This document shows, piece by piece, positions 5,984-45,694 of a DNA stretch of 64,000 nt. The DNA lies in the NCBI RefSeq assembly GCF_900109575.1, contig NZ_FOAF01000003.1, positions 310,001 to 374,000 of the forward strand, written 5' to 3'. The first letter of the stretch is position 1; each line of letters starts with the position of its first letter. Source of the DNA: Olivibacter domesticus (lineage in GTDB: Bacteria; Bacteroidota; Bacteroidia; Sphingobacteriales; Sphingobacteriaceae). The notes under the pieces are model-generated. The model searched no databases. It saw nothing but the letters and a program-made list of their open reading frames with translations, and had not been told where the DNA came from. The position numbers and the translations under genes were made by a program.

Positions 5984-6021
5984 TGTTCGAAAGCGTACAC
6001 TTTATGGCGCAAAAGCGTACA
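5984..6021. promoter_or_regulatory. Tandem-palindrome upstream activator site A
   Basis: Two imperfect palindromes, TGTTCG-AAAG-CGTACA and TGGCGC-AAAAG-CGTACA, are separated by 5 bp (CTTTA). This is the least conserved of five such sites in the window; the second half-site is degenerate and one base longer. It probably binds two dimers of an activator on the same DNA face. Confidence 0.65.
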
Positions 6022-6129
6022 GCTTCCGTTCCTAACCTTGTATCTTACTTCTGATATTGTTTTTATTTTATGTGTGAGCTGCTAGAAATATTTTGCGAAT
6101 AACCAGCAACTAAACACCAATAACTAAAA

Positions 6130-8532
6130 TCATTCATTCCTTAACGAATCTACCGGATTGGCTAACGCGGCACGAATCGCATGAAAGCTAACCGTTATTC
6201 CAGCGATACAGATTGCCGTTATACCTGAGAAAGCAAAGATCCAGCTGTTCAATTCCATCCGGTAAGCAAAATCATTCAGCCAATCGCTACCCATCCACCA
6301 GGCTATAGGGCAGGCAATCACAAAAGCGAGAAATACCAAGAATAGAAATTGTTTTGAGATCAGCATGACGATGTTCGTTACGTCTGCACCCAGCACTTTC
6401 CGAATACCGATCTCCTTGGTCCGTTGAATGGTAGTGAAAGCCGCAAGCGCAAATAATCCCATACAGGCCAAAGCAATAGCGATACCGGAGAAAACTGAAA
6501 ACAAATGGGCAATCCGTTCTTCAGTCTTATAGAGCGATTGGAAGTCGTCATCCAAAAAATGGTAGTCGAAAGCGCGATGACCGACACGTGCTTTCCAGGC
6601 TTCTTCCAATGTACCTAATGTTGTGGCAATGTGATCGCTCTTTATTTTCACAAAAAGCTGTCTCACTAAGGAGGTATCCGGAAAAATCAATAGCGGTCCG
6701 ATAGATGCATGAAGTGATTCGAAATGGAAATCTTTTATGACACCTACTACCGGACCGGGAATCCCTCTGGATACAATTTGACCGATGGCTTTTTCGGGAG
6801 TCCATCCCAATTCTTTTACAGCCTTTTCATTCAAAATGTAAGCAGTTTGATGCTGTGAACCGGCTACGGTAGTCTTTTCGGCAGCGACGAAATCAGCGGG
6901 AACGAAATCTCTACCAGCCACTAAGTCCATACCCATGGTTTTTAAATAGTCGAGATCAACTGGCGCTGCATTGAGCGAAAGATCTTTAGGTCCTGTACCG
7001 TCCTCTGCATGAATACCATCCCCCCAGCCAACGGATGTAGGATCTTCATAAGAGCCCGTAACGCTCAATACATTTGGATTCGCTTTAAATGCATTTTTTA
7101 GCTGCTCATATACCCCGTGGGTTTTGGAATCTACAGGTAAAACTAAAACGTGAGAGCGATCATAGCCTAGATTTTTATTTTGAATATAGTTCATTTGTTT
7201 CAGCACAATGAACGTCGTAGCCAGCAGAAAAATGGCGATGGAAAACTGAAAGATAATTAACCCCTTGCGTACCGTTCCGCCTGAATTCGTTATCTGTAGG
7301 CCCGATTTTAACGTTAGTGCTAATCGTTTGCTACTCAGTATAACGGCTGGGTATAATCCAGCAAGCAAACTAATTATAAGGCTTAATGAGATAGCGGCTA
7401 ATAAAAATAAAGGCTGGAAGAATATACTAAATGAAAAGTCTTTTCCAGTTATGTTATTAAATAGCGGCAATAGAACTGTAGCAATGAGCAGGGCCATAAG
7501 CAGGGCGAAGAAAGTGATTAAGGTGGATTCACCCAAAAATTGTCTGATCAGCTGCCTTTTTTCAGCGCCCATCACTTGTCGGATACCAATTTCCACACCA
7601 CGATTAGCTGATTGTGCGATGGATAGATTCGTATAGTTGACGCAGGCAATCAGTAAAATAAGGAGTGCAACAATCGTTAACACATAAATATACACGATAT
7701 TACCATTTGCTTCCAAACCCGCCAGCTTAGAGTATAGGTGTACCGATTTTAGAGGTTCTAAGTGCACGGTCCAATAATCTGTTTTCGGAATGTCCATTTC
7801 TTCCTCGTTTACCTTTTTCATATAGTCGGTAATCGCGCTAGCCAAAGGGCGAATTTGATCGGAATTTTGAAGCAATAGGTAGGTAATATAATTAGCCGTA
7901 CTCCATATTTCGGTTTTTGCAGCATCCAAACTATTGAAAGAAATAATCAGATCATATTGAATCTGGGAGTTGAGTGGAACATCTTCACTGATGCCAGTCA
8001 CCTCATAATGCGCTTCGCCACCGTTCAATTGGATGGTTTTGCCGATGGGGTTTGCGTTTCCAAAATATTTCTTTGCTGTTGAACGGGATAACACCGCCTT
8101 CTGCGGGTCGTTAAGCACCGATGCTGCATTACCCTGTACCAGCGGAAAAGAAAACGTTTGGAAAAAGGCTGCATCCGCATAGAGTATATTCTTTTCATCA
8201 AAAGATTGTTGGTTTACCGTAATAGCACCCGCACTTTTCATGGTACGGACATACTGCAATACTTGTGGAAAAGTTCTTTTAAAAGCAGGTCCTACCTTGG
8301 TGCCCGTCTGTGCAAACTGGTGCTCAGAGCCAGACATGCGAAGATCAGACGTTACTCGAACAAGGCGGTCTGCGTTCGCATGGAAATCGTCGTACGTGAT
8401 CTCATTCCGGATGTAAATACCTATTAACATACAGGTAACCAGACCTATCGTTAAGCCAAAAAGATTTACGAAGCTATAAAGCTTGTTCTTTTTGAAATTT
8501 CTGAGAGCGATTTTGAAATAATTCTTTATCAT
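6130..8532 (-). CDS. FtsX/MacB-type ABC transporter permease (P4, 800 aa)
   Basis: Begins MIKNYFKIALRNFKKNKLYS. First signature RGVEIGIRQVMGA (Q replaces the usual K after R), second RTKEIGIRKVLGA; ends NPVDSLRNE. The first periplasmic domain has the standard STAKKYFGNANPIGKT block. The second carries an insertion around AEKTTVAGSQHQTAY compared with the siblings. It follows P5 after a 98-bp repeat spacer and is the last gene of operon II. Its stop codon is only about 110 bp from the activator site of operon I, so its transcript ends in the control region of the next operon. Confidence 0.94.
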   Translation of the reverse strand: MIKNYFKIALRNFKKNKLYSFVNLFGLTIGLVTCMLIGIYIRNEITYDDFHANADRLVRVTSDLRMSGSEHQFAQTGTKVGPAFKRTFPQVLQYVRTMKSAGAITVNQQSFDEKNILYADAAFFQTFSFPLVQGNAASVLNDPQKAVLSRSTAKKYFGNANPIGKTIQLNGGEAHYEVTGISEDVPLNSQIQYDLIISFNSLDAAKTEIWSTANYITYLLLQNSDQIRPLASAITDYMKKVNEEEMDIPKTDYWTVHLEPLKSVHLYSKLAGLEANGNIVYIYVLTIVALLILLIACVNYTNLSIAQSANRGVEIGIRQVMGAEKRQLIRQFLGESTLITFFALLMALLIATVLLPLFNNITGKDFSFSIFFQPLFLLAAISLSLIISLLAGLYPAVILSSKRLALTLKSGLQITNSGGTVRKGLIIFQFSIAIFLLATTFIVLKQMNYIQNKNLGYDRSHVLVLPVDSKTHGVYEQLKNAFKANPNVLSVTGSYEDPTSVGWGDGIHAEDGTGPKDLSLNAAPVDLDYLKTMGMDLVAGRDFVPADFVAAEKTTVAGSQHQTAYILNEKAVKELGWTPEKAIGQIVSRGIPGPVVGVIKDFHFESLHASIGPLLIFPDTSLVRQLFVKIKSDHIATTLGTLEEAWKARVGHRAFDYHFLDDDFQSLYKTEERIAHLFSVFSGIAIALACMGLFALAAFTTIQRTKEIGIRKVLGADVTNIVMLISKQFLFLVFLAFVIACPIAWWMGSDWLNDFAYRMELNSWIFAFSGITAICIAGITVSFHAIRAALANPVDSLRNE

Positions 8533-8630
8533 TTCGTTGTTTGTTGTTCAATTCATCGTTCATTGCCGGACTTCTGATTCTTGGTCGGTAGGCCTACGAA
8601 TAACCAGCAATCAAGTACTAATAACTAAAA
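8533..8630. repeat. Intergenic inverted heptamer repeat (GTTGTTN/AATAACN type)
   Basis: Spacer between P5 and P4. The left arm has GTTGTTT and GTTGTTC units and the right arm has AATAACC, AGCAATC, AATAACT-like units in the opposite orientation. It is a second sequence family of the same 7-nt architecture seen in the other spacers. A small palindrome GTAGGCCTAC lies at its centre (about 8591-8600). Confidence 0.6.
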
Positions 8631-11012
8631 TCATTCATTCCTTAAACTTTCCACCGGATTGGCTAGTGCTGCTTTGATGGCCTGCCAGCTCACGGTAAGC
8701 AAAGCAATAACTAAGGCCATCAACCCGGCCAATACAAACATCCACCATTGTAATTCAATATGATAAGCAAAATCTTCCAACCATTTGCTCATTGCCCACC
8801 AAGTAATTGGAGACGCCACCATCAATGCTATGAAAATAATCTTTATAAAATCTTTGGAAAGCAAGTTTAAAATGCTGGATAAAGATGCTCCCAATACTTT
8901 ACGGATACCGATTTCTTTGGTACGCTGTAATACGCTCAGAGAAATTAATCCTAGCAAGCCAAGACTACTTATAAAAATAGCTAAGGTTGCAGCTGTCCAA
9001 ATTAATTTTTGTTGAATGGCTTCTTTAATATATAGTTCTTCAATCTGTTCATCTAAATATTGATAATTTAATATTGTATTGGGAAACCATTTAGGCCATT
9101 CTTGTTCTAGCTGTTTGATGAAATGAGTTAAGCCCTGACTATTGATTTTTATTGCTACTGTTTGAAATAACTCTCTATCATAGCCAATAACCGTAGGATC
9201 AATAGGATCATGGAGAGATTTAGTGTTATAATTAGCAATTACTCCTACAATGATGCCTGGCTTTTCGTCATGCATACCCGCGCCCAGTAAGGATTTTCCT
9301 AAGACCTGTTGTTCGTTCTTATATCCTAGCATATGCATCATTTTTTGATTGATCAGGTATTCGGGAAGCGTTTTGTTTTCGCGTATATTTCGACCCGCAA
9401 TTAAGGGGATGTCTAGTGTAGAGATATATGCACTATCTGCGAACGTGGCTTTGGTAGCCCAAGCTTCATAATCGGCTCTTTGGTCAAACAAAAATGTACC
9501 ACCTCTTGAATCGTGCATGGCTGGCGCCCTAAAACAAAAACTATAATTAGAAATGGAGAGCTTATTATCTAAAAATGTTCTTAACGCTTTCTCCTTTTCC
9601 ATAGCCCTTTTTGGTAGTGGCACTAGAAGAACAGATTCTCTATTAAAACCAACATCCGTTGAACTGAGAAAACGCACTTGTGCAACCATTACAATTGTAG
9701 CAATGATAAGGCACAGTGATAGGATATTTTGCACCAGTACCATCGCTTTCCTACCATTTGTTGAGCCGAGTGAAAAATTGTTCTTAAGTGCGTTTACAAT
9801 AGCCAATTTACCGGTCATATATGCGGGATAAATGCCAGAAAGTAAACTTATGACGCTCCAAATAACCAAACTCAATCCGGATAATTCAAGTAGTGAAGGC
9901 TTAGCAATAGGCTCATTAATAAATAATATTTGATTGGCGATCGGAAAGACAATCTGCAATAAAGCCAATCCCAGTAGGCAAGCTAAGCCGACAACGCAAA
10001 TGGATTCTGTTATAAACTGGAAAAATAGCTGACTGCTCGATCCACCCAATACTTTTCTCGTTCCTATTTCGGCACTCCTTTTTGCATACTGTATCAAAGA
10101 TAGATTGATGTAATTCAACGTGGCAATTAGTAATATACTTAGACCAATAAATCCTAATATCCACAGGAGAGACTTCTGTACACTTCCCCCGAAATTGGTA
10201 TCGAAGTGAATATCCTTTAAGGCTTGTAGTTTAAAATGGAAGAGTTTACCTGTTTCTTCTCCAAAGTACCGGTTGGTCAATTGTTGTAATGTACTTTCAA
10301 TGGAAGCTATATTGGATGAATCATTTATTGATACATATAACTGGTTGGTCGTATTGATGTAGCCCCAGTCTGTAAAATAGTTGTTCCGAATATTAGGTAG
10401 AACGGTTTTAATGGAAGCCTCGGAAATATAGAGGTCTGATTTGAGATCTGTATTGGTCGGTTGGTCGTCAATAACTCCAATTACTTTAAGGGGGTATTTA
10501 CCATCTACGTAAATAGTTTGGCCCATTGCCTCCGTTTTGCCAAAGAAACGTTCGGCTGTCGAAGCCATTAGCGCCACGGTGTTAGGTTGATTTAACGCTG
10601 TTGCATTCCCTTGTAGCCAATGGTAATTAAATAGTTTAAACCATTCTGAAGAGGTAAATGCAGCTTTTTTGTTGGAAGAAAAGAGATTTCCGTTAACGTT
10701 CAATGTTAGATCTTGATGGGACATGGAGAAGGCTGCGTGTTCAATACCCGGAACCTTCGATTTTAAGGCATCATAAATCGCATAAGAACTGCCGCTTTCA
10801 TGTTCGATTTTTTCTAAATGGAGATCATGAACAACACGATAGATGTGCTTTGCTTGTTTATGGTAGCGATCGTAACTGAGATGAAATTGGATGTAAAAAA
10901 AGATAAATATACAGCAGGCAATGCCTATTCCAAGTCCTAAGATATGGATTAAAGTAAAATATTTATTTCTTAGAAGACTGCGCCACGCCGTTCCAAAGTA
11001 GTTTTTTATCAT
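8631..11012 (-). CDS. FtsX/MacB-type ABC transporter permease (P5, 793 aa)
   Basis: The frame is open up to 11030, but I choose the start at 11012 because MIKNYFGTAWRSLLRNKYF then aligns with the family opening; the six extra upstream residues match nothing. Signatures are RSAEIGTRKVLGG (unusual T before RK) and RTKEIGIRKVLGA; the C-terminus is NPVESLRNE. The second PCD-like domain is atypical, with the cysteine-containing stretch NYSFCFRAPAMHDSRGG. It is now the first intact gene of operon II. Between it and the promoter at 11199 lies the relic of a deleted permease (11120-11170), leaving a predicted leader of about 175 nt. Confidence 0.93.
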   Translation of the reverse strand: MIKNYFGTAWRSLLRNKYFTLIHILGLGIGIACCIFIFFYIQFHLSYDRYHKQAKHIYRVVHDLHLEKIEHESGSSYAIYDALKSKVPGIEHAAFSMSHQDLTLNVNGNLFSSNKKAAFTSSEWFKLFNYHWLQGNATALNQPNTVALMASTAERFFGKTEAMGQTIYVDGKYPLKVIGVIDDQPTNTDLKSDLYISEASIKTVLPNIRNNYFTDWGYINTTNQLYVSINDSSNIASIESTLQQLTNRYFGEETGKLFHFKLQALKDIHFDTNFGGSVQKSLLWILGFIGLSILLIATLNYINLSLIQYAKRSAEIGTRKVLGGSSSQLFFQFITESICVVGLACLLGLALLQIVFPIANQILFINEPIAKPSLLELSGLSLVIWSVISLLSGIYPAYMTGKLAIVNALKNNFSLGSTNGRKAMVLVQNILSLCLIIATIVMVAQVRFLSSTDVGFNRESVLLVPLPKRAMEKEKALRTFLDNKLSISNYSFCFRAPAMHDSRGGTFLFDQRADYEAWATKATFADSAYISTLDIPLIAGRNIRENKTLPEYLINQKMMHMLGYKNEQQVLGKSLLGAGMHDEKPGIIVGVIANYNTKSLHDPIDPTVIGYDRELFQTVAIKINSQGLTHFIKQLEQEWPKWFPNTILNYQYLDEQIEELYIKEAIQQKLIWTAATLAIFISSLGLLGLISLSVLQRTKEIGIRKVLGASLSSILNLLSKDFIKIIFIALMVASPITWWAMSKWLEDFAYHIELQWWMFVLAGLMALVIALLTVSWQAIKAALANPVESLRNE

Positions 11013-11119
11013 TATAGTATCAAGTATCAAGATATTACTAAGAGCTTTTATAGATCAAAGTCTTTATGCCTATGTCTTTATTCGGCCTAATAACCAATAA
11101 CGAACAGCTAATAACCAGA

Positions 11120-11170: not shown

Positions 11171-11198
11171 GCATCGCCAATGCTCACCATTAACCAAT

Positions 11199-11215
11199 AC
11201 AGGAATTGCGCCAAA
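11199..11215 (-). promoter_or_regulatory. Sigma54-like -24/-12 promoter B (operon II)
   Basis: Minus-strand sequence TTTGG-CGCAATTCCT-GT, differing from promoter A by two bases. GG to the -12 pair is 10 nt. The GG lies about 73 bp from the centre of the palindrome pair at 11266-11302. The last base of the -12 element departs from TGC. Predicted start is near 11187. Confidence 0.55.
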
Positions 11216-11265: not shown

Positions 11266-11302
11266 TGTTCGTTTCCGAACACTAGCTGTTCAGATCTGAA
11301 CG
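11266..11302. promoter_or_regulatory. Tandem-palindrome upstream activator site B
   Basis: A perfect TGTTCG-TTTC-CGAACA palindrome, 5-bp spacer CTAGC, then TGTTCA-GATC-TGAACG, whose core TTCAGATCTGAA is a perfect palindrome. It lies between operon II (leftward) and the SNF2 gene (rightward, start about 230 bp away). Position and spacing match the leftward sigma54-like element. Confidence 0.8.
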
Positions 11303-11532: not shown

Positions 11533-14500
11533 ATGATCAAATCTAATATGAAAACAGCCGAACAAAATTTAAACGCGAATGAAATTATTGCTAATGGGGA
11601 GGAAGAAATTCTTTCTGTAAAAAGGAAATCTTCTGATCCTTTTATTATTCCGTGGGAAGATGGGAAGCCTTTTAAGTTGAGCATAGAAAGGTTAGAGAAC
11701 CTAATTCTAGAAAGTAAAAATGAGAAATACGAGAAAAGCTATTTTCATCCACGCGATTTGTCTTTCGATCTTTGTGAAAATATCCTGTCTTTAGAGGCGT
11801 ATTGTGGAAGTGTTTTTCAGATTCATTTTTTAATAGAAAAAGATGGTGTATTTGTTCAATGCGATTGTAAGTGCAAGGGAAATGTTTGTTTGCACTTGTG
11901 GAGTTCTCTACGCTACTGCTTATGGTGGTACGGCGAGACCTTCTTTAAACAGTTTTATTTACCAGAAATAAGAGACCTTGCATTAGAGCATAGACGTTTA
12001 TTGGCGGTGGATACTACTTTTGATGGGATACAATTTAAACCTAAGGAAGGGTATGGCCGTGTATTTGGCTTTAAAAATGAAAGGGAATTACTATTCAGAT
12101 TTTCCTCCCCAGTTGTAAAAAAGAAATCCTTGCCAGATAGCCATAAGAAAATAATTTTCGGAATACCTGATGACGCTTACAATTTTCAGCAACCTATTTT
12201 AATACCATACTTAGCAACTCCAAACCCGAGGCATGGTTCAAAAAGGCCCTTCATTAAGTATGATAAAAGTTTTTTATTGCAGAATTCCAGTGAAGAGAAA
12301 CCAAAAAATTTGACTAAAAATCAACGTGCAATCAATACAATTTGTGAGGAAATGTTAATTATTGCAAACCTCTCATTGGAGAAGTTGTCGATTAATTTTG
12401 AAGATGGAGAATCTGACGAACATTTAGATGAGGATAAGCTTATTATAAGCTATAGAAATAAGCTTTTATTTGAATTGTGGCAGGAGGTAATACCGCTTCT
12501 GAGTAGCGAGTTCGTTCTTGCTTTTCACTCAGCACTTAAAGATTCTTCGTTGATTCGACCTGTTACTTTACCATCGTTTCGTGTATCCCTATGTTTACTA
12601 CATCCCATTATTTCTTTCTTATTGATTTACAATGAAGGCGTGATCAAATTTAGGATGCAAATTAAAATAGCGAATAAATTTATTGAAAATCCTTCGGTAT
12701 TTCCAAGCTCTTCTGGGTTCTTTATTTCAACAGAAGATAAAGGAAAATACACACTCGTGAACAAAGCTCATGACGCGGAGTTAATAAGTCGTTTCAGCAA
12801 AATTGATTATTGTATAACTGTGTTGCCAAATGACTATGTACAGTTTAAAGGAGAAATCTTGGATAAAGTTGCTGTGCACTATCCCATTTTCTGTGAAAAC
12901 AGAGATGCAAATGATAAATTTTTCGAAGTAAGGAACATTCTAAACTGTCTGAAAAAAAAGGTGATGTTCACTATTAAAGGAGACACACTTTTGATTGCCT
13001 TTAATTTGGTTTATGATTGCGACGTAATAATCGACGCCTTTACCGATGGAAATAGTATTTTCGGATGGCAGGGCAGTTATGAAAAAGTATTCTTGAGGAA
13101 TAAAGAGTCCGAAGATAATGAGCGAAATATCTTTTTATCCTGCAATGAAGACTTTCAACGTCAAGTCCCTTTCGGGGTGTTTAGGTTGCCTGTTGAAAAA
13201 GTAAAACATGGTTCCTGGTTGGCAGATACGGTTAAACTTTTTACAGAAGAAAATTACGAGATTGATGGATTGGAAAACTTGGTGGGCTTTCATTTTAATC
13301 CATATCCGATGAAATGGGATATGAAAATTTATAAAAAAACGAATCATGTAGAGATCGCATTGGAAATTTGTTTCGGAGATCAGCGCATAGGCCTGGATGA
13401 CATAAGAGATTGCTTGGCCTCTACGATGGAAATCATACAGTTACCCGACGGATCTGTCGGCCGAATACCACGAGAGTTTAAGCAGCGCATATTGCCACTT
13501 ATGGCTGTTGCCACGAAAACAAAAAACGGGTTGCTACAAATATCACTTCAGCACTTCACCTCCATCCAATCGTTTGCCAATAAAATTACCGATAAGCAAT
13601 TGCACGAGCAGTTGAAATTGCAGCGCAAAAAGCTCCAACAGCTAGATAAGATACAACCACTACCTAAACCTGAAAAAGTTCAGGCAGTTCTCCGCCCTTA
13701 CCAGGAAACTGGTTTTAGTTGGATGGGTTTTCTTCGAGAGTTTGGTTGGGGAGGAGTGCTCGCGGATGATATGGGACTTGGGAAAACACTTCAAATATTA
13801 ACGGTGCTAGAATACCATTATATACAGTCGCCAGATAGCCCCGCTTCTTTAATCGTAGTTCCTAACTCTTTATTGTTCAATTGGCAGGCGGAGGTTAAAA
13901 AGTTTACCCCACACCGAAAGGTGCTGGTACACCATGGTGTTAACCGATCGCTGATGGAAGTTTCTACATTTCCCGGCCAGCTCCTACTAACTACCTATGG
14001 TACATTGATCTCAGATATAGAATTACTTTCAAAGGAGAAATTCGGCTATCTTATTCTCGACGAATCGCAGTCGATCAAAAACCCGCAATCCAAACGGTTC
14101 GAGTGTGTACAGGCGGTACGGTCCGACTTTCGACTCGCGTTGACAGGCACGCCTATAGAAAACGGAATATCCGATCTGTTCGCGCAGCTCGATTTTGTGA
14201 ATCCTGGGTTTCTCGGTACATATGGCCAGTTTAAGCGAAACTTTCCCGGAATTGCGGATGGCACAGCAAGCGTAGAAACGAAGGAATCTTTGCAGCAGCT
14301 TATCGCTCCTTTCATGCTGCGGCGTACCAAAGCGCAGGTGGCCAAAGATTTGCCGGAAAAAACAGAGATGACGCTTTACTGTGAGATGCTACCCGAACAA
14401 CGTAAGGTATATGAGCAGTACCGTAGACGTTTTCGTAGTGAGCTGGAGGATAAAATGGATGAGCGCAAAGACCAGGCAACGATGTTCGTGCTGGAAGCAC

Positions 14501-15075
14501 TCATGAAACTCCGCCAGATTTGCAACTCGCCTGCGCTTATTCCTAACGAAAAGTATGAAAACCACTCTGCCAAATTGGAAGAAATCCGTGAACATATCCT
14601 CGAGAAAACGCAAGGACATAAGCTGCTCATTTTTTCTTCCTTTACCAAGATGCTTGCTTTATTGGAGGATGAGTTGAAGAGTGTTGGTATTGGCTATGCG
14701 TACCTTGACGGAAAAACAAGTGGCGATCAGCGGCAACAAGCAGTGAACCGTTTTCAGGAAGAAAGTGACTGTCGGGTGTTTTTGATCAGCTTAAAGGCCG
14801 GAGGAACGGGATTGAACTTAACAGCAGCAGATTATGTATATATTTTTGACCCCTGGTGGAACCCTGCGGCAGAAGCACAAGCCATCGATCGTTGCTACCG
14901 TATTGGTCAGGATAAGCATGTGATGGCCTACCGGATGGTATGCAAGGATAGTATCGAAGAACGGATCCTACAATTGCAGGAGGGAAAAAAAGCATTGGCA
15001 GAAACACTTGTGCAAACCGATAGCAGCGTGCTGAAATCTTTGAATAAAGAACAGCTATTGAAGCTATTTGAATAA
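11533..15075 (+). CDS. SNF2-family DEAD/DEAH helicase with SWIM zinc finger (1180 aa)
   Basis: Predicted ATP-dependent DNA translocase of the SWI2/SNF2 superfamily. A SWIM-type zinc-binding motif is visible near residues 110-121 (CDCKCKGN then VCLHL, i.e. CxC...CxH). The C-terminal half (from about 700) has the full helicase core: Walker A GGVLADDMGLGKT near 740, DESQ box (LDESQSIKN) near 842, LTGTPIEN near 870, and motif VI DRCYRIGQ near 1118. The N-terminal ~600 residues are divergent and more AT-rich than the core. It is a single gene with no methylase, nuclease or phospholipase partner, so I would not call it part of a named defence system. An in-frame ATG five codons downstream is an alternative start. 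A TATATTTG sequence resembling the Bacteroidota -7 element lies about 50 bp upstream. Confidence 0.93.
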   Translation: MIKSNMKTAEQNLNANEIIANGEEEILSVKRKSSDPFIIPWEDGKPFKLSIERLENLILESKNEKYEKSYFHPRDLSFDLCENILSLEAYCGSVFQIHFLIEKDGVFVQCDCKCKGNVCLHLWSSLRYCLWWYGETFFKQFYLPEIRDLALEHRRLLAVDTTFDGIQFKPKEGYGRVFGFKNERELLFRFSSPVVKKKSLPDSHKKIIFGIPDDAYNFQQPILIPYLATPNPRHGSKRPFIKYDKSFLLQNSSEEKPKNLTKNQRAINTICEEMLIIANLSLEKLSINFEDGESDEHLDEDKLIISYRNKLLFELWQEVIPLLSSEFVLAFHSALKDSSLIRPVTLPSFRVSLCLLHPIISFLLIYNEGVIKFRMQIKIANKFIENPSVFPSSSGFFISTEDKGKYTLVNKAHDAELISRFSKIDYCITVLPNDYVQFKGEILDKVAVHYPIFCENRDANDKFFEVRNILNCLKKKVMFTIKGDTLLIAFNLVYDCDVIIDAFTDGNSIFGWQGSYEKVFLRNKESEDNERNIFLSCNEDFQRQVPFGVFRLPVEKVKHGSWLADTVKLFTEENYEIDGLENLVGFHFNPYPMKWDMKIYKKTNHVEIALEICFGDQRIGLDDIRDCLASTMEIIQLPDGSVGRIPREFKQRILPLMAVATKTKNGLLQISLQHFTSIQSFANKITDKQLHEQLKLQRKKLQQLDKIQPLPKPEKVQAVLRPYQETGFSWMGFLREFGWGGVLADDMGLGKTLQILTVLEYHYIQSPDSPASLIVVPNSLLFNWQAEVKKFTPHRKVLVHHGVNRSLMEVSTFPGQLLLTTYGTLISDIELLSKEKFGYLILDESQSIKNPQSKRFECVQAVRSDFRLALTGTPIENGISDLFAQLDFVNPGFLGTYGQFKRNFPGIADGTASVETKESLQQLIAPFMLRRTKAQVAKDLPEKTEMTLYCEMLPEQRKVYEQYRRRFRSELEDKMDERKDQATMFVLEALMKLRQICNSPALIPNEKYENHSAKLEEIREHILEKTQGHKLLIFSSFTKMLALLEDELKSVGIGYAYLDGKTSGDQRQQAVNRFQEESDCRVFLISLKAGGTGLNLTAADYVYIFDPWWNPAAEAQAIDRCYRIGQDKHVMAYRMVCKDSIEERILQLQEGKKALAETLVQTDSSVLKSLNKEQLLKLFE

Positions 15076-15214: not shown

Positions 15215-15430
15215 ATGGATAATCGTCTGCTATATAGTAAATTGCAGGCTCTCCCTGAACATATGAGAGCAGAAGTAGCTGACTTCATAGATTTTTTGAC
15301 GGCAAAAGCAAAAATAAGTCAGGAGATGCCTCAGCAATCAAAAGCTCCAAAATTTGGCAGTGCAAAAGGAATGTTCAAAATGCATGATGATTTTGACGAA
15401 CCATTGGAGGATTTTAAAGAGTATATGTAA
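15215..15430 (+). CDS. DUF2281-type antitoxin of a VapBC-like module (71 aa)
   Basis: Short acidic protein beginning MDNRLLYSKLQALPEHM and continuing with the DUF2281-like stretch EVADFIDFLTAKAK. The C-terminal half is unstructured and ends FDEPLEDFKEYM, the usual toxin-binding tail of such antitoxins. The frame extends upstream to 15155, but the start at 15215 matches the family and has AGGAAG six bases before it. The stop overlaps the toxin start by one base (TAATG), typical of translationally coupled toxin-antitoxin pairs. It should neutralise the PIN protein encoded next and repress their common promoter. Confidence 0.85.
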   Translation: MDNRLLYSKLQALPEHMRAEVADFIDFLTAKAKISQEMPQQSKAPKFGSAKGMFKMHDDFDEPLEDFKEYM

Positions 15431-15816
15431 TGCAGCACAATTTGCTTGACACACATACTTTTATTTGGTTTGTTAATGGTGATAATCAACTTTCGTCAAA
15501 AGCCAAGAAAAGTATCGAAAATGAAAGAACCGTAAACTACATTAGTGTTGCAAGCTTATGGGAAATTGCCATCAAAATTAGTCTTCAGAAACTCGAATTA
15601 GGTAGGCCATTTGCTCAGATTGAAAATATTATATCCTCAAACGGTTTTCAACTTTTGCCTATAAGCTTTGATGATACAATAAAAATTTCAACATTGCCTT
15701 TCCATCATCGCGACCCTTTTGATAGAATAATTCTTTGTCAATCTATGACAAAGAATCTGCAAATTATTTCGAAAGACAAAAACTTTAAATTATATAATAT
15801 CTCACTTCTCTGGTAA
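15430..15816 (+). CDS. PIN-domain ribonuclease toxin, VapC-like (128 aa)
   Basis: Predicted Mg2+-dependent RNase. The PIN acidic residues are in place: D8 in LLDTHTFIW, E45 in ASLWEIAIK, and the two aspartates of HHRDPFDRIIL near residues 93-97. The HRDPFDR motif marks the PilT/YgjK-like subgroup that usually pairs with DUF2281 antitoxins, as here. Length is normal. The gene ends only nine bases before the relic of a permease N-terminus (15825-15893, opposite strand), so the SNF2/TA segment was joined very close to the old permease sequence. Confidence 0.9.
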   Translation: MQHNLLDTHTFIWFVNGDNQLSSKAKKSIENERTVNYISVASLWEIAIKISLQKLELGRPFAQIENIISSNGFQLLPISFDDTIKISTLPFHHRDPFDRIILCQSMTKNLQIISKDKNFKLYNISLLW

Positions 15817-28354: not shown

Positions 28355-28381
28355 CGTGTTTATTTTTAGGGTGCTTCAGCT

Positions 28382-30960: not shown

Positions 30961-30978
30961 TGCTAAAAGTATTCCAAT
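30961..30978 (-). promoter_or_regulatory. Sigma54-like -24/-12 promoter C (operon III)
   Basis: Minus-strand sequence TTGG-AATACTTTTA-GCA has both the GG and the GC dinucleotide at the canonical 10-nt separation. It is the best sigma54 match of the five in its -12 element, but lacks the GGC of the other -24 elements. The GG is about 72 bp from the centre of the palindrome pair at 31029-31065. Confidence 0.6.
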
Positions 30979-31028: not shown

Positions 31029-31065
31029 TGTTCGTTATTGAACACTGGGTGTTCGATAACGAACA
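31029..31065. promoter_or_regulatory. Tandem-palindrome upstream activator site C
   Basis: TGTTCG-TTAT-TGAACA, 5-bp spacer CTGGG, then a perfect TGTTCG-ATAA-CGAACA. The centre-to-centre distance of 21 bp equals two helical turns. It sits just beyond the stop codon of the acetyltransferase gene and upstream of operon III. Confidence 0.85.
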
Positions 31066-34083: not shown

Positions 34084-34145
34084 AATATGTAATACAATGT
34101 ATTTAGATATGTTTTTTACTATCAAGTATCAAGATCCAAGTAGCT

Positions 34146-34162
34146 TCATATCTTACGCCAAA
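34146..34162 (-). promoter_or_regulatory. Sigma54-like -24/-12 promoter D (P12)
   Basis: Minus-strand sequence TTTGG-CGTAAGATAT-GA, with 10 nt between the dinucleotides and -12 TGA as in promoter A. The GG lies about 73 bp from the centre of the palindrome pair at 34213-34249. Predicted start is near 34134, giving a leader of about 51 nt. Confidence 0.55.
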
Positions 34163-34212: not shown

Positions 34213-34249
34213 TGTTCGATATCGAACAGTTGATGTTCAGAAGTGGACA
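34213..34249. promoter_or_regulatory. Tandem-palindrome upstream activator site D
   Basis: A perfect palindrome TGTTCG-ATAT-CGAACA, 5-bp spacer GTTGA, then the weaker TGTTCA-GAAG-TGGACA. Same order, spacing and distance to the promoter as the other sites. Confidence 0.83.
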
Positions 34250-36730: not shown

Positions 36731-37437
36731 AAGAATTATTTGAAGATGTAGCCGTGGAGAAATTCACGGTGGAATGTTCGCTGATGTATTCTAGTTTTAT
36801 CTATTGCCTTATGCTCAATCGGATTGTTCGTCGCTACTCTTCAATGGAGCTGTCTTTTTTACTTGGCCAAGAAGACGATTTTATTGATAACATCGAACGG
36901 TTCAAGGTAATTGACTTCAGCATTGATCTATATGGGCAATTATGTAAGGTGTTTCGACATACTTCCTTTGCCCATCATCAATACCACGGAGAGAAAGATA
37001 TTAAACATGAAATGCATGTGTGGGAAGCCGGAGGAACAATATTTTATCGGATGGAATGCTACAAAAGCGTGTATGAAAGCATTGTCCTATTTCAGTTGAC
37101 TGAGGAGGATCCAAATACAGCTGCGTATCGCTATAAAAATTCGGTTGAACTTGACCAATGCCAATCACAAGAAATTTTGAAAATCATGCTTGAAAACAAT
37201 CTTTTTAAGAATCCAATTAGTGGCCTTGAACTCCATCGACTTCTCGAGAATACGTTGGAAAGTCAAGTCTACCCAATCCATTTTAAAACCGAACTCGAAA
37301 AACTGATAGGGCGTAAAGGAAAAGCACCCCTGAAACGGACAAAACGGCGAAGTTATGGATATCGTTACGTGCTCCATCCCGGTACGGATATGACCTATGC
37401 AATGGATTTTGTTAACCAAAAATTTGATAAACTATGA
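36727..37437 (+). CDS. Unknown protein with HEPN-like R-x5/6-H motif (236 aa)
   Basis: I do not recognise this family. The protein is mostly helical. It contains LCKVFRHTSFAHHQYH at residues 72-87, where R77 and H83/H84 fit the R-x4-6-H motif (with polar residue after R and AH before the end) found in HEPN ribonucleases. A very basic stretch, GKAPLKRTKRRSYGYR, lies near residue 210 and could bind nucleic acid. The gene overlaps its upstream and downstream neighbours by four bases each (ATGA), so the proteins are probably made in fixed proportion. HEPN assignment is inference from the motif only; a match to RteC-type proteins was considered but not supported. Confidence 0.6.
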   Translation: MKELFEDVAVEKFTVECSLMYSSFIYCLMLNRIVRRYSSMELSFLLGQEDDFIDNIERFKVIDFSIDLYGQLCKVFRHTSFAHHQYHGEKDIKHEMHVWEAGGTIFYRMECYKSVYESIVLFQLTEEDPNTAAYRYKNSVELDQCQSQEILKIMLENNLFKNPISGLELHRLLENTLESQVYPIHFKTELEKLIGRKGKAPLKRTKRRSYGYRYVLHPGTDMTYAMDFVNQKFDKL

Positions 37438-38201
37438 CTAAAATTGAAACGGAATATTTGGATGTTCCTAGAGATTGTCTGGTTTCCTGCAAACTTTTCG
37501 GAATTACGGTACCTGATTTTTTACAGTGTATTATCCAACATTTTTGCTACACACATATACAACTACATGACCGTTCCGAATATGATATGGCTACAAAGGC
37601 ATTTCTGGGGGCAGAGAAACAATTAGAAGAAAAGGAAATTGTCCCAATAACGCATTTGTCAGCAACCCAACGTGATAATTTCCTGCGAATACTAAAGCAG
37701 TTGCTGAAAATGACTACAAACCGAAATTACAGTATTTCCGCGAGAAGGAATAAAGGAAAAATACTCGTAAACAAAATGTTTTCTCTTCTCTCAACAGGCC
37801 TAGTTGTGAAGGATATTGTATACTACAGCGAAGATATAAAAATCCAGTTGAACAAGGATTTTCTGCTGATGACTTTAATCAACCAACGGTCGCCAACTGA
37901 GCTGTTGAATGCGATGATGAAGAATATTTCCTACGCTACATTAGCTGCACGTCAACATCTGAAAGAAGAAATTTTCAATCCTGCCGGATCTTTTTTTGTA
38001 CGCGTAATGGATGGCTACGGCAACTTACAAGATACAAAATATTTGAATTCACGAGCGTTTAAAGAATTTTTGTGGGACGTACAGGAATTTAGGCCACGAT
38101 ATTTCTTTTATCGGAATTTGGAAGATCGTATTGAAGTGTACCGCGAGCGGTTAGAAGAAAACTTTCAACGAATTGATAAACCTTTTTTTGACTATGATTA
38201 A
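37434..38201 (+). CDS. Unknown cytoplasmic protein of the HEPN cassette (255 aa)
   Basis: No known family recognised. The N-terminus (CKLFGITVPDFLQCIIQHFC, about residues 19-38) resembles the N-terminus of the next gene's product (CDIFNLTPEEIIQDFINN). This suggests a shared small helical module, perhaps for association. The middle is basic (SARRNKGKILVNK) and the C-terminus is charged and helical (RIEVYRERLEENFQR). There is no signal peptide or membrane segment. The start overlaps the stop of the preceding gene, and the stop overlaps the start of the next gene by eight bases. Confidence 0.6.
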   Translation: MTKIETEYLDVPRDCLVSCKLFGITVPDFLQCIIQHFCYTHIQLHDRSEYDMATKAFLGAEKQLEEKEIVPITHLSATQRDNFLRILKQLLKMTTNRNYSISARRNKGKILVNKMFSLLSTGLVVKDIVYYSEDIKIQLNKDFLLMTLINQRSPTELLNAMMKNISYATLAARQHLKEEIFNPAGSFFVRVMDGYGNLQDTKYLNSRAFKEFLWDVQEFRPRYFFYRNLEDRIEVYRERLEENFQRIDKPFFDYD

Positions 38202-38619: not shown

Positions 38620-40740
38620 CTATAACAACCCTTTTTCTTCCAATGATGCCTTTAGCTCTTTATGCTTATCCCAAAATTTAGTTTTAATGGTGTGCATTAC
38701 CATCTTGAATTCAGGTAGGTTTCTAAGAGGTTTAACTAAAGGATCTCTTTCAAGTAAAAGTATCCAATATTGGTAATTATCTTCCTTGGTAAATAACTTC
38801 AAGTGATCTAGGGTTTTCTTTCTATCTTTTAGGTAAGCATAGTACATCGCTAGGTGTACATGTTTATAAATAGATTGGTCATTGTCTGCAAATTTTTTAA
38901 AACTGGTTATGAATTTATTCGATTCCTCTTTAAAACCCAATTTGGATAGAACGATTCCCATGGTGAGGTCCACGTTTTTAAAAATGTCCAATTGTTGAGC
39001 TTCACGAAGTTTGATAAATTGTTTATAGTATCGATAAGCGGCTTGATAATCGCCCGCGTAACAGTATACGTTCCCCATTTCCTGCAAAATATGGAGCTGC
39101 GTGCTATCTCTCTCCAATTCTTTTAATAACAACTGCTTTGTTTGGTCGATGGTACCGTCTTTAGCAAAAAGGATAGCAGCCTTCACCCAGATGGCATAGG
39201 AATTTTCGAGATTGTAAGCTATTGACTTATCAATGAAATGAAGCGATTCTTCTACAAATCCTGTTTGTATGAGCGCATTGCTGAGGTGTAAATAGTTGAG
39301 GCTCGTGCTTGCGGAATCTTGTAATCCGGCATTCAACTTAACCCCTAGAAGAGCATACTCAAGGTACTTGGCAGTATTGGGAATAGAATAATTATAAAAA
39401 TCTGATAAAAAGTGGATAGCCAAAATGGAATTAGGATTGTATTCCAAGGCTTTTTCAAGATAGGGAACGGCAGCCCCATAGTCTTTTTTATGTGCATAAA
39501 ATAAAGCTTTAGCGATCAGGCTTTCGGGTAAAAGAGGGTCGCATAAAAGCGCTTTATCTGCGTAAAAACCCATTTCAGCGGTATAAATTTTTCTTTCTTG
39601 AAAAAGATCCAGGTAGTAGTAGGCGATGGCAGAAACGGCATAAGCAAGGGCAAATTGAGGATCTTCTTTAATAGCCTTCTTAAAATAGCTGATGCCCTGT
39701 TCTAAGTTGGCATGACCACCTCTACGTAATAAATCGCTGCCTTTAAAAAAAAGGTCATATGCCACCAAATTCTCGGTCGGATTTTTTTCAATCCTCGATC
39801 GTTCTTCACGAGTAATGGTCGCTTGAACTTCTTTAGCAATGTCTTTTGCAATCTCCTGCTGCAATTGAAAAATATCTTTAACCTCTCTGCGATATTGTCG
39901 CGACCATAAGTGCCGGTCTTTTGGAGCTTCGATTAACTGCACATTTAATAAAATCCGGTTACCGATCTTTTGACCGCTCCCCTCCACGAAATAATTTACA
40001 TTGAGCTCTTTGGCCATCTCGGGGATGGATTTGAATAGATTCCTGTACTTTTCGGATGAAGTCCTACTTGTTACTTTCAGATCTTTTATTTTTTGAAGAT
40101 TATTGAGGGTAGATTCCATCAAGCCATTGATTAAGTAGACATTGGTCGAATCATTACTGTCATTTTTGAAGGGTAGTACGGCAATCGATTTTTCAAGCGA
40201 GCTCTTAGTAGATGAAGCGTCCATACCATACCTGAGTAAAGCAATGGCTAATACAACGATTAACCCGGCAGATAGTAAGATAAAAACAAAGCGTCGCTTA
40301 TGGCTTTTGGAGACTGCAGGAGGAGGAATATTTTCTGTTGCTTCTTTTTGGTTATTAGCTGCTCCGGGAGGGAAGCCATAATATTCGCGAAAGCACTTGA
40401 TAAAGTAGGAGGTACTGCTAAATCCCACACGGTCTGCTACTTCAGAAACGTTTAAAGAAGAGTCTCGAAGCAGATTCATCCCCTGTTCTAAGCGCACCTG
40501 CCGTATTAGTTGACTTACTGACAAATTGCTGAGCTTTCTCACTTTACGGAGTAGATTTGAGCGACTCATATTCAGCTCATTGGCGAGTTCGGAAACGCCA
40601 AACTGCTCATTCGAGAGATTTTTCTCCACGATCGTAGCAATTTGACGGATAAAATCATTAGCAAAGGGCTGATAATCAGGCATTGGTTTACATCTTATCT
40701 TTTCTATATCAAACTTAGATAAATTGCTTTTTATATGCAA
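38620..40740 (-). CDS. Membrane-anchored AraC-family regulator with TPR sensor region (706 aa)
   Basis: N-terminal AraC/XylS helix-turn-helix pair at about residues 35-125 (GVSELANELNMSRSNLLRKV and SEVADRVGFSSTSYFIKCFR). A single membrane helix lies at 150-170 (FVFILLSAGLIVVLAIALL). The periplasmic part then has a TolB/FlgO-like segment (SIAVLPFKNDS...LINGLMESTLNNL, 184-290) and TPR units to the end (e.g. FKKAIKEDPQFALAYAVSA, LEKALEYNPNSILAIHFLS). This order puts DNA binding and sensing in one transmembrane chain. The likely target is the divergent ankyrin/acyltransferase unit, where a direct repeat (40837-40871) fits AraC sites. M20 is a possible alternative start. Confidence 0.88.
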   Translation of the reverse strand: MHIKSNLSKFDIEKIRCKPMPDYQPFANDFIRQIATIVEKNLSNEQFGVSELANELNMSRSNLLRKVRKLSNLSVSQLIRQVRLEQGMNLLRDSSLNVSEVADRVGFSSTSYFIKCFREYYGFPPGAANNQKEATENIPPPAVSKSHKRRFVFILLSAGLIVVLAIALLRYGMDASSTKSSLEKSIAVLPFKNDSNDSTNVYLINGLMESTLNNLQKIKDLKVTSRTSSEKYRNLFKSIPEMAKELNVNYFVEGSGQKIGNRILLNVQLIEAPKDRHLWSRQYRREVKDIFQLQQEIAKDIAKEVQATITREERSRIEKNPTENLVAYDLFFKGSDLLRRGGHANLEQGISYFKKAIKEDPQFALAYAVSAIAYYYLDLFQERKIYTAEMGFYADKALLCDPLLPESLIAKALFYAHKKDYGAAVPYLEKALEYNPNSILAIHFLSDFYNYSIPNTAKYLEYALLGVKLNAGLQDSASTSLNYLHLSNALIQTGFVEESLHFIDKSIAYNLENSYAIWVKAAILFAKDGTIDQTKQLLLKELERDSTQLHILQEMGNVYCYAGDYQAAYRYYKQFIKLREAQQLDIFKNVDLTMGIVLSKLGFKEESNKFITSFKKFADNDQSIYKHVHLAMYYAYLKDRKKTLDHLKLFTKEDNYQYWILLLERDPLVKPLRNLPEFKMVMHTIKTKFWDKHKELKASLEEKGLL

Positions 40741-43022: not shown

Positions 43023-45440
43023 TCACTCGCTTCGCAAAGACTTCACCGGATTCGCTAATGCTGCCTTTACGGTTTGCACACTAATAGTAATGAATGCGAT
43101 CAGTAGCGCGACGCAGGTGGCAACTACAAATACCTCCCAAGAAATGTCAATTCGATAGGCAAAATCACTCAACCAACTGCTCATCGCAAACCAAGCAATA
43201 GGAAAGGCAACTAAGGCTGCTAGTGCAACTAAAAGCAAAAAATCCTTCGACAATAAACGAACAATACTTCCAATGCTCGCGCCTAAAACTTTACGGATGC
43301 CAATCTCTTTTACACGCTGGGTAATGGTAAAAGCAGATAAGCCAAATAAGCCTAAACAGGCTATAAAAATAGCGACACCTGCAAAGACGCTAAAAATAAC
43401 TTGTTGTTGATGTTCTGCTTTGTAAAGATCAGCAAAGCGGCTATCTAGAAAAGTATAATCAAAAGGTACTTCGGGTAGATATTTTTTCCAAGTTGCTTCT
43501 ATGTGCTGCACGGCCCGCTGCACGTCGCCTGAAACCCGAATAGAAATCCGATTATAGTCATTCTCTCCGGTGGAGACTGATAAAACCAAGGGTAAGATGC
43601 GTTGGTGTAAGGATTCGAAATTAAAATCATTCATAACACCGGCAATCTGACCCATTTGATCACCATATTTAAATTGTTTACCCAAGGCCTCCTCGTTAGA
43701 CTGAATACCGAGTGCCCTAACAGCCGCTTGGTTAAGTACAAAAGAGCTTGTATCGGATCCATCTTGACCTTTGAAGTTTCTTCCCGAAAGCATTGAAATA
43801 CCATAAGTAGGAATAAAGCCTTCATCCACGCGTAGATATTTAATATCAGCTTTAGACGGGGCGAGGGAGTTACCCAAATTAATCTGCGCTCCTTGTGCAT
43901 CCAATAGCCGACCTGAAGGGATACGGCTCGATCGCGCGACATCTTGAATTGCGGTATTTGTTGTTAAAGAATTTCTAAACGATTGAAAAGACTGATCCAA
44001 ACCGTCATTGTTATTTAAAATGATAACCTGTTCTTTATTAAAACCTAGAGACTTATTCTGAATAAAACTGAGCTGCTGGAATACGATGGCTGTACTTACA
44101 ATTAAAATAATGGATATGGAGAATTGAATAACTACCAAAATCTTTCTTAAGGAGAAGGCTTTTTCACTATTCTTAAATAGGCCTTTAAGTACTTTTACCG
44201 GACGAAATGAAGAGAGAAAAATCGCAGGGTAGATGCCCGAAACAATGCCAATAAAAAAAGGTAGTAGTAGTAATGGAATTAATATTTGCGCTTTTAATAA
44301 AAGAGACATGGAGAGTGTCTGACCGGATAGGTTATTTAACAGTGGGAGCAACAACCATGTCAGCAAAAACGAAATGAAAGCGGCTACCCAGCAAATCAAA
44401 ATACTTTCACTCAAGAATTGAGCAATAAGTTCTGACTTGTTTGCCCCTACTACTTTTCGAACACCAATTTCCCTTGCGCGCAATGCAGAGCGTGCCGTTG
44501 ATAAGTTCATATAATTTATGCAGGCAATCAGTAGAATAAAAATTCCTATGATTGAAAAAATATAGACCCTTTTAATATCGCCATTTTCCTCTAGCTCTGA
44601 ATCTTTGTGCGAATACAAATGTATATCACTTAACTTTCGCAGCGATAAGGAAGTCCAGTTTGAAGCTTTATTGCTGCCATCTGGAACATGCCTATTAAGA
44701 AATGCCGGAAATTGTGCTTCGAGTTGCTTAGCATCAAAACCCTTAGGAAGCAAAAGATATAAATAAAACATATTGTTGCCCCAATTTGTCCGTAGCTGTT
44801 CTTCGCCATAAATAGCCGTGTCTTTCAATGAAGAAAAAGACAGTAAAACATCAGGATGCCAATGTGAATTTGCTGGTAAAGATTCATAAATGCCTGTTAC
44901 TTTAAATAATAACTGTTGGTTGATCTTGATCATTTTATTGATCGGATTTTCATTTCCAAAATATCTTTTAGCAACTTCTTCAGTCAATAAAATGGAGTAA
45001 GGTTCCGTCAATGCATTTTTAATGTTACCCTCTTTCAAGTTAACGTCGAATACATCAAATAAATGTTCATCTGCAAAATAAAGCTCGTTTTCTTTAAAGA
45101 TTTTATCGTTGTATTGAATGGTTCCATCACCAATAGGTAATATGGTGGTAATGGTTTTAATTTCCTTAAAATCGTTCTTCAATAAAGGAGCAAACGGAGG
45201 AGCCACTGCTCCAAGGTCTAAGGAAACGCTCTTATCCTCCTGATTTAGAAACGTGCGTTCTACCCTGTAAACATGTTCTGCCTGTTTATTATACTTATCA
45301 TAACTTAACTCGTTAACTAAATAAACACAAATAATAAAGCAGCAGGTTAGTCCAATGGTAAGACCAGATATATTAATGAATGAATACACTTTATTCTTCA
45401 TCAGATTTCGCCAGGCGATTTTTATGTAATTTTTAAACAT
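43023..45440 (-). CDS. FtsX/MacB-type ABC transporter permease (P13, 805 aa), operon V
   Basis: The frame is open from 45455, but the start at 45440 gives MFKNYIKIAWRNLMKNKVYS as in the siblings. Signatures RAREIGVRKVVGA and RVKEIGIRKVLGA; ends NPVKSLRSE. It is a single-gene unit: to its left lies only repeat sequence and the converging acyltransferase gene. The leader is long (about 140 nt from the predicted start near 45580) and contains the hairpin at 45469-45483 and AAGTATC repeats. The control region is 45592-45694. Confidence 0.94.
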   Translation of the reverse strand: MFKNYIKIAWRNLMKNKVYSFINISGLTIGLTCCFIICVYLVNELSYDKYNKQAEHVYRVERTFLNQEDKSVSLDLGAVAPPFAPLLKNDFKEIKTITTILPIGDGTIQYNDKIFKENELYFADEHLFDVFDVNLKEGNIKNALTEPYSILLTEEVAKRYFGNENPINKMIKINQQLLFKVTGIYESLPANSHWHPDVLLSFSSLKDTAIYGEEQLRTNWGNNMFYLYLLLPKGFDAKQLEAQFPAFLNRHVPDGSNKASNWTSLSLRKLSDIHLYSHKDSELEENGDIKRVYIFSIIGIFILLIACINYMNLSTARSALRAREIGVRKVVGANKSELIAQFLSESILICWVAAFISFLLTWLLLPLLNNLSGQTLSMSLLLKAQILIPLLLLPFFIGIVSGIYPAIFLSSFRPVKVLKGLFKNSEKAFSLRKILVVIQFSISIILIVSTAIVFQQLSFIQNKSLGFNKEQVIILNNNDGLDQSFQSFRNSLTTNTAIQDVARSSRIPSGRLLDAQGAQINLGNSLAPSKADIKYLRVDEGFIPTYGISMLSGRNFKGQDGSDTSSFVLNQAAVRALGIQSNEEALGKQFKYGDQMGQIAGVMNDFNFESLHQRILPLVLSVSTGENDYNRISIRVSGDVQRAVQHIEATWKKYLPEVPFDYTFLDSRFADLYKAEHQQQVIFSVFAGVAIFIACLGLFGLSAFTITQRVKEIGIRKVLGASIGSIVRLLSKDFLLLVALAALVAFPIAWFAMSSWLSDFAYRIDISWEVFVVATCVALLIAFITISVQTVKAALANPVKSLRSE

Positions 45441-45468
45441 GGTGTTAGTTTTCAATGGTGTTTAAGCT

Positions 45469-45483: not shown

Positions 45484-45591
45484 GGTTTTATCATTATAGT
45501 ATCAAGTATTAAGATATTTCAAAAAGCTTTGCCTTCTAAGTGCTTCTAATCGGCAGTTTTGTGCCTTGATACTTGTGTCTTATATCTTTGT

Positions 45592-45608
45592 CCAACTTTA
45601 TTGCCACA
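45592..45608 (-). promoter_or_regulatory. Sigma54-like -24/-12 promoter E (P13)
   Basis: Minus-strand sequence TGTGG-CAATAAAGTT-GG. It has TGGCA at -24 and TTG at -12, with the final C replaced by G. Its GG lies about 72 bp from the centre of the palindrome pair at 45658-45694, the same distance as in the other four control regions. Confidence 0.5.
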
Positions 45609-45657
45609 ATCAAAAGCGCCTTTTTTCCGTCATCCAGCCTATTGTGATTCCAGTTGT

Positions 45658-45694
45658 TGTCCGAATACGGACAATGTGTGTTCGTATTCGGACA
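45658..45694. promoter_or_regulatory. Tandem-palindrome upstream activator site E
   Basis: TGTCCG-AATA-CGGACA (perfect), 5-bp spacer ATGTG, then TGTTCG-TATT-CGGACA. Where the half-site has C instead of T (TGTCCG) the opposite half changes to CGGACA, so symmetry is preserved. It lies between P13 (leftward) and the SusC gene (rightward). Confidence 0.83.

Follow-up and report, generated by a model that had tools for sequence, protein, structure and literature searches.

A candidate sigma-54 enhancer and its predicted activator ahead of MacB/FtsX permease units in Olivibacter domesticus

Closest described systems

To our knowledge, the assignment of activators to sigma-54 promoters is poorly known outside Pseudomonadota. 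Among the described enhancers, those of the NifA/NtrC type have the form TGT-N10-ACA. The present analysis concerns a stretch of 64,000 nucleotides of the Olivibacter domesticus genome (6.78 Mb), namely positions 310001 to 374000 of contig C3, referred to as the window, in which paired 16-bp palindromes stand ahead of units of MacB/FtsX permease genes, and a response regulator (RR) encoded further along the same contig. It is proposed, with a probability of about 85%, that these sites are sigma-54 enhancers to which the RR would bind, driving an exporter core and most of the long MacB/FtsX permease genes. This reading was assembled from sequence: the sites, the fixed distance at which a promoter follows, the targets, RpoN, the RR, and a conserved gene neighbourhood. 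The sites share with NifA/NtrC-type enhancers the half-site spacing and the occurrence in pairs, whereas the arms TGTYCG...CGRACA and the exporter targets are features of the present sites.

The LuxO/qrr enhancers of Vibrio, as presented in the available part of PMC4740811, likewise combine an NtrC-like regulator, tandem sites, and one sigma-54 promoter, and show the same steps of ~11 bp in loop length. However, their loops measure ~80–120 bp and their targets are small RNAs, whereas here the distance from the site end to the -24 element is 50–54 or 61–64 bp and the targets are exporter genes.

Sigma-54 control of FtsX-like permeases has already been predicted. In the available part of a 2025 survey (PMC12316311), a sigma-54 enrichment for such permeases (COG0577) in Bacteroidia is reported and termed the first evidence, which concerns the same gene family, phylum, and sigma factor as the present sites. 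Unlike here, that part of the survey gives no enhancer sequence or activator for the COG0577 permeases, and the strings "UAS" and "palindrom" yield 0 hits in it. In the same source, GAFTGA is called invariant in sigma-54 activators and only GAFTGA sequences were retained, a filter that would drop the RR family described below. Sigma-54 promoters have also been mapped in Flavobacterium psychrophilum (PMC9723704); as far as its main text was available, the terms permease, FtsX, MacB, and TolC are absent from it. No publication naming this activator or enhancer was found, as judged by the titles and abstract openings of the top matches and with subscription journals mostly uncovered. The elements regarded as new are the candidate activator, its enhancer, and the loop variant. 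The regulator, the likely enhancer code, the promoter geometry, and the targets can be read together in several Bacteroidota families; a control circuit is offered for large MacB/FtsX permease families, and an activator family discarded by a literal GAFTGA search is exposed.

Tandem sites, promoter distance, and the candidate activator

The original prediction placed five tandem palindromes in the window, at 5984, 11266, 31029, 34213, and 45658, each consisting of two copies of TGTYCG-N4-CGRACA with centres 21 bp apart. All five places are present. Counted in the same register, mismatches to the 37-bp pattern number 0 at 45658, 1 at 31029, 2 at 34213, 3 at 11266, and 9 at 5984. The tandem arrangement holds at the first four of these, while the site at 5984 shows 1 mismatch in its first palindrome and has a degenerate second one, with 8 mismatches, or 5 if a 6-bp spacer is allowed. 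At up to 3 mismatches, the window contains four matches (5984 not among them), whereas 100 dinucleotide shuffles give 0.00 on average. A single 16-bp palindrome is less distinctive, with 11 window matches at up to 2 mismatches versus 4.45 expected. In the whole genome, 18 matches are obtained with 3 mismatches allowed, and reversing the pattern gives 0; each of the five genomes of the genus that were searched (including this one) contains 11–18 sites, again with 0 for the reversed control. The central 4 bp and the flanks vary between sites, while the arms and the promoter distance are kept. The further suggestion of mirrored changes in the two arms is not supported: the 18 genome sites comprise 36 palindromes, of which just 13 have a left-arm fourth base complementary to its partner, and the C/C pair cited as an example occurs once among them, at 45658.

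The position of TGGC relative to the site end was counted on both flanks. In O. domesticus, TGGC stands at 51–54 bp, on the gene strand, for 13 of the 18 sites (14 hits, one site having a hit on both sides), and some of the remaining sites have TGGT, TGGA, or CGGC at the promoter position. Three further sets of genomes, none of them used in forming the promoter idea, give similar distances. Among the sister genomes, flanks were examined for 16/16 sites of G197 and 15/16 sites of G200 (G198 and G199 were counted only), and TGGC lies at 50–54 bp for 11 of 16 and 11 of 15 of them, respectively. Six other genomes of the class contain nine sites with nine TGGC hits at 61–64 bp, about one helical turn further. 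At the RR loci of other genera, 32 tandem rows with spacers of 4, 5, or 6 bp were listed; the offset counts were restricted to matches of the 37-bp pattern with 3 mismatches at most, that is, eight distinct sites in loci L040–L117, and TGGC is found at exactly 52 bp in seven of them (all seven from Sphingobacterium) and at 50 bp in one. Two Saprospiraceae loci with a 4-bp spacer have TGGCAC at 52 bp, reading TGGCACACCCCTTGGC and TGGCACACCCGTTGGC. As far as sequence can tell, this spacing is the layout of a sigma-54 promoter.

In a sigma-54 promoter, GG at -24 and GC at -12 are expected ten bases apart. In 40 promoters of three genus genomes, the -12 position shows G in 37/40, the preceding T in 33/40, and the C after the G in just 6/40; GG stands where expected, but these rows were preselected for correctly spaced TGG[CTA], and their -24 counts therefore carry no meaning. 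The genome contains one RpoN match (E 8.2e-56), which includes the stretch ARRTVAKYRE, taken by us to be the RpoN box. The IHF-like box has the consensus WATCARNNNNTTR. Exact copies occur in 11 of 59 enhancer–promoter loops, compared with 3 of 59 opposite flanks and, on average, 0.3 in mononucleotide shuffles, and with one mismatch the figures are 21/59 versus 5.6. These 21 boxes favour two positions, 11 beginning 18–20 bp and 8 beginning 28–31 bp before the -24 element; the eight RR-locus loops have no such box.

These distances bear directly on a first alternative, namely that a conventional dimeric regulator, for instance of the TetR, MarR, or PadR type, uses the sites as operators at sigma-70-type promoters. 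Two dimers would fit onto paired palindromes with a 21-bp offset, and related permeases elsewhere accompany PadR genes. In addition, the available part of PMC11237479 describes fusions of MacB/FtsX proteins to the HAAS domain of PadR-like systems. However, TGGC at a fixed 50–54 or 61–64 bp is unexpected for an operator, and in several genera the neighbour of the site is a sigma-54 activator gene. The sigma-70 operator reading was dropped given the fixed TGGC distance, and PadR control was dropped because the sole PadR match over the cut-off (C3:109572) and the closest scored site on C3 are ~173 kb apart; one further PadR match falls below the cut-off. Such operators are thus considered unlikely. 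In view of the fixed promoter distance and of the site beside a sigma-54 activator gene, each palindrome more likely serves as the half of an enhancer that takes up one dimer of a ring-forming activator. Of the earlier proposal, the single regulon is well supported, while the operators of a "single dimeric regulator" give way to sites that behave like sigma-54 enhancers.

The candidate activator is encoded at C3:411886-413277, ~38 kb past the right edge of the window. This RR of 464 amino acids has three domains over the cut-off, a receiver (PF00072), a sigma-54 AAA+ domain (PF00158), and a Fis-type helix-turn-helix (PF02954), and a histidine kinase gene directly follows its gene. A site lies between this pair and a divergent operon for an adaptor (HlyD_3, PF13437), an ABC ATPase, and permeases (PF12704, PF02687, and PF00005 for permease and ATPase). 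The closest relatives of the RR are found in O. jilunii (85%) and O. sitiensis (74%), and the end of the helix-turn-helix, [AS]LYR[RK], is kept in 19 of the 22 relatives shown; in the other three, the alignment stops short, a stop occurs, or the sequence differs (one case each). The neighbourhood of RR, kinase, and exporter is found again in Olivibacter, Mucilaginibacter, Pedobacter, Sphingobacterium, and others, several of which have an intervening site, and both Sphingobacterium loci shown have a second site ahead of TolC. In the six class genomes of the 61–64 bp group, the promoter leads into an adaptor–ATPase–permease operon at six of the nine sites. Four genomes have their sole site upstream of the closest RR relative, at 195 bp (G159), 494 bp (G076), 140 bp (G054), and 85 bp (G196). 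Because the single site of these distant genomes stands there, the regulator–exporter pair looks ancestral, with its spread to many permease units seen in Olivibacter.

Enhancers of another sigma-54 activator of the genome would be a second alternative, as there are nine strong Sigma54_activat matches and their Fis-type helix-turn-helix domains are broadly similar. Yet just one of the nine, the RR itself (C3:412363-412863), adjoins a site. For the other eight, the distance to the nearest of the 33 sites kept in the scoring described below exceeds 30 kb, and the linkage of RR and site recurs in other genera. This alternative is regarded as quite unlikely.

For the RR as activator, the following mechanism can be outlined. 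Each palindrome would be bound by one RR dimer, and because the two palindromes are 21 bp apart, both dimers would lie on the same helical face. The RR would be paired with the adjacent histidine kinase and, once phosphorylated, would form a ring. Between enhancer and promoter, the short and phased DNA would bend or loop, and in some promoters the IHF-like box is located there. The RR would then open sigma-54 RNA polymerase at the -24/-12 promoter 50–54 bp downstream. In this scheme, we infer both the binding of the RR and the dependence on sigma-54 from the features described above. The output would be the expression of one exporter core (adaptor, ATPase, and TolC) together with most of the ~45 long MacB/FtsX genes, whose products are presumed to function as permeases. 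The inducing signal is perhaps envelope stress or antimicrobial compounds, a guess from the type of exporter.

Targets, distribution, and points against the proposal

An enhancer-plus-promoter sequence model was built from 18 sites of O. domesticus (17 of the 18 pattern matches and the site at 5984), whose scores are not independent of it. The model gave 81 matches in this genome at E≤10, of which 33 were kept. They comprise the matches scoring at least about 20 bits in whichever orientation was better, and also C3:411741 in the orientation that faces the regulator. Reverse-strand echoes of the palindromes and weaker matches were dropped. A same-strand MacB_PCD gene is found within 600 bp of 21 of the 33 scored sites. 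Consequently, the statement that the sites occur only upstream of the first gene of permease units is correct for all five sites of the window, which head minus-strand units, and does not extend to the genome as a whole. The genome scan with the 37-bp pattern, recommended earlier as the place where random scatter or unrelated genes would become apparent, leaves the regulon standing.

One of the 21 permeases is split into two frames of 194 and 584 amino acids with a site ahead (L156:5641-8018, C10:1175640-1178017), and one site precedes an FtsX fragment of 87 amino acids (L152:5973-6236); these are decaying permeases that keep their enhancer. A weak site stands at the start of a protein of 1238 amino acids (L158:5849-9565, C12:880848-884564) in which an AraC-type helix-turn-helix (residues 300–381) precedes MacB_PCD and FtsX domains, that is, a regulator fused to a permease. 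Three scored sites face the adaptor operon, the RR, and TolC (PF02321). The parts of a MacAB-TolC system, namely permease, ATPase, adaptor, and TolC genes, are all found under the same sites.

The genome contains ~45 permease genes of at least 750 amino acids (43 clusters, in which two pairs of equal-length neighbouring permeases were merged), and 41 of them belong to site-headed units. These include all 28 on C3, where intergenic gaps within units are at most 160 bp wherever the sequence was read, and 13 elsewhere, a count that takes in one C10 pair whose second-gene gap is assumed. One of the long permeases, the AraC fusion, has only its weak site, and six shorter MacB-domain frames of 413–459 amino acids have no scored site. 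At E≤1e-40, a search with the ABC ATPase adjacent to the RR gives six genome matches, its own gene among them, and two of the six belong to C3 operons headed by a site. In the sister genomes, a permease is next in line at 11/16 sites of G197 and 10/15 sites of G200, one of the latter without a clear promoter. The site matching C10:753102 is followed by a permease of 794 amino acids in G197 (L204) and by an esterase-like gene in O. domesticus (L017), where the equivalent permease may have been lost or replaced. The sites could also be non-regulatory copies of a small mobile or repeated element, co-copied with the duplicated permease genes, but this is most unlikely given that the arms and the promoter distance persist despite divergent flanks and central 4 bp, that sites also precede TolC, adaptor, and regulator genes, and that a similar site–promoter geometry is found in other families.

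Of 197 genomes of the class, 11 contain the pattern, 43 have an RR match (E≤1e-80), and 7 combine the two, O. domesticus being counted. The motif is thus present in 7/43 genomes with an RR match versus 4/154 without (Fisher p=0.0025); when O. domesticus is excluded, the figures are 6/42 versus 4/154 (p=0.0074). Presence and absence across the class is a modest test, and the adjacency of site and RR is the stronger one.

Several observations weigh against the enhancer–RR proposal. At the stringency used, 36 of the 43 genomes with an RR match have no motif. A part of these may have a changed site and a part may have paralogs; the row listing over RR loci gave no tandem rows for Mucilaginibacter, and a 17-bp palindrome relative, TGTNCGGTTNTGATACA, is found upstream of the regulator in many Mucilaginibacter loci (e.g., L042, L048, and L066); three other loci (L040, L041, and L076) have two 17-bp copies spaced 22 bp apart. 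Conversely, four genomes (G048, G133, G162, and G170) have a motif match and no RR match at E≤1e-80; two flanks among them carry TGGC at 54 or 63 bp, so they are not clean chance matches. In G107 and G039, no site lies beside the RR matches and their five sites are elsewhere (L211–L215). Two of these five head adaptor–ATPase–permease operons. Downstream of each of the five, at a distance of no more than 130 bp, lies a gene encoding a protein of 109 amino acids with a signal-peptide-like start; the one that was scanned has no Pfam match. Within O. domesticus, seven of the 33 sites precede genes without an export link (esterase-like, ROK, DUF2807, nitronate monooxygenase, and small lumazine-binding-like genes) or, in two cases, have no close gene, and three long permease genes have no site (C10:1064061, C10:1965082, and C7:274056). 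The promoters themselves have a weak -12 element, with the C of GC in just 6/40 genus promoters, and the exact IHF-like box is missing from 48 of the 59 loops.

The remaining point of this kind is the loop of the RR, which reads GAYTDA and not GAFTGA, whereas the other eight activators of the genome have G[AS]FT[GS]A. The Asp is common to the family: 104 of 105 aligned relatives have GA[Y/F]TDA or GSFTDA and one has GAFTGA, a sample biased by the fact that 80 of the 105 were fetched with peptides including HKKGAYTD and in which at least four genomes are counted twice. All 19 relatives picked by overall similarity (L161–L179) also have Asp. A parallel is provided by NorR G266D, in which, according to the available part of PMC2941729, a protein with Asp at the corresponding position of the GAFTGA loop remains able to open sigma-54 promoters and is freed from its regulatory domain; the discussion of that paper cites Tyr as a tolerated replacement for the loop Phe. 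However, the NorR variant is a laboratory mutation that releases GAF domain control, whereas the Asp of the RR is the natural state of a receiver-domain family. Since NorR with Asp still opens sigma-54 promoters, the GAYTDA loop argues against literal membership of the class and not against the mechanism, and the RR is best described as probably working like an NtrC-type activator with a variant loop.

A more far-reaching idea is that one two-component system with a GA[Y/F]TDA loop commands a repertoire of exchangeable permeases, so that different exporters would be obtained from one core by permease swap, and that the loop is tuned to a relaxed -12 element (TTG[A/T]), giving an activator that is easy to fire. 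Permease swapping on one core might occur, because ~45 long permeases stand against just two such ATPase genes in operons headed by a site, and the site targets were found to include one adaptor gene and one TolC gene. Taken as a whole, the idea is doubtful. A strict pairing of GA[Y/F]TDA with a weak -12 element was considered and found unsupported, as the -12 C is present in 5/9 promoters of the 61–64 bp group.

Permeases and neighbouring genes of the window

The genes behind the window sites encode MacB_PCD/FtsX permeases of ~800 amino acids (Table 1). Like members of the ADOP family (TIGR03434), they match over the full length of ~800 amino acids, and most are without an adjacent ATPase gene. 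They differ in score, as the six window permeases tested against TIGR03434 reach 264–328 bits and remain below the family cut-off of 622.3. The listed TTG start of the permease at 31693-34125 is too near the promoter, and the true start is therefore probably further in. The site of the sixth unit lies just outside the window, at ~65021-65130 (C3:375021-375130).

Table 1. Permease units, candidate enhancers, and predicted promoters of the window (positions in the window; scores from the enhancer-plus-promoter model)
Position	Strand	Feature	Remarks
932..5867	-	Two MacB_PCD/FtsX permease genes	3459-5867 first
5916..5931	-	Sigma-54-like -24/-12 promoter (predicted)	TGGCGCATTTCCTGAT; 52 bp after enhancer 5984
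5984..6020	-	Candidate tandem enhancer of four-permease unit (3459-5867, 932-3376, two genes left of window)	Degenerate second palindrome; C3:315914-316022, 53.1 bits
6130..11030	-	Two MacB_PCD/FtsX permease genes	8631-11030 first
11198..11213	-	Sigma-54-like promoter (predicted)	TGGCGCAATTCCTGTA; 52 bp after enhancer 11266
11266..11302	-	Candidate tandem enhancer of permease unit 8631-11030 / 6130-8532	65.5 bits
15971..30915	-	Six consecutive MacB_PCD/FtsX permease genes	28492-30915 first
30961..30976	-	Sigma-54-like promoter (predicted)	TGGAATACTTTTAGCA; 52 bp after enhancer 31029
31029..31065	-	Candidate tandem enhancer of six-permease unit 15971-30915	58.3 bits
31693..34125	-	MacB_PCD/FtsX permease gene	GNAT gene 31076-31546 next
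34145..34160	-	Sigma-54-like promoter (predicted)	TGGCGTAAGATATGAA; 52 bp after enhancer 34213
34213..34249	-	Candidate tandem enhancer of permease 31693-34125	67.8 bits, best of the genome
43023..45455	-	MacB_PCD/FtsX permease gene	
45591..45606	-	Sigma-54-like promoter (predicted)	TGGCAATAAAGTTGGA; 51 bp after enhancer 45658
45658..45694	-	Candidate tandem enhancer of permease 43023-45455, perfect match to the pattern	49.8 bits
54886..64000	-	Sixth permease unit, four genes	Continues beyond right edge

Other genes are located between and beside these units. An AraC-type helix-turn-helix fused to TPR repeats is encoded at 38620-40740 (-), with no scored site ahead. A gene for a SNF2-type helicase (11533-15075) and one for a PIN-domain protein (15430-15816), both on the plus strand, lie between permease units, and a gene for a HEPN-domain protein is followed by genes for two proteins of 236 and 255 amino acids without Pfam matches (34991-38201, +). 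Across the perfect site, a TonB-dependent receptor and SusD pair (45901-50941, +) is divergent from the permease gene at 43023-45455.

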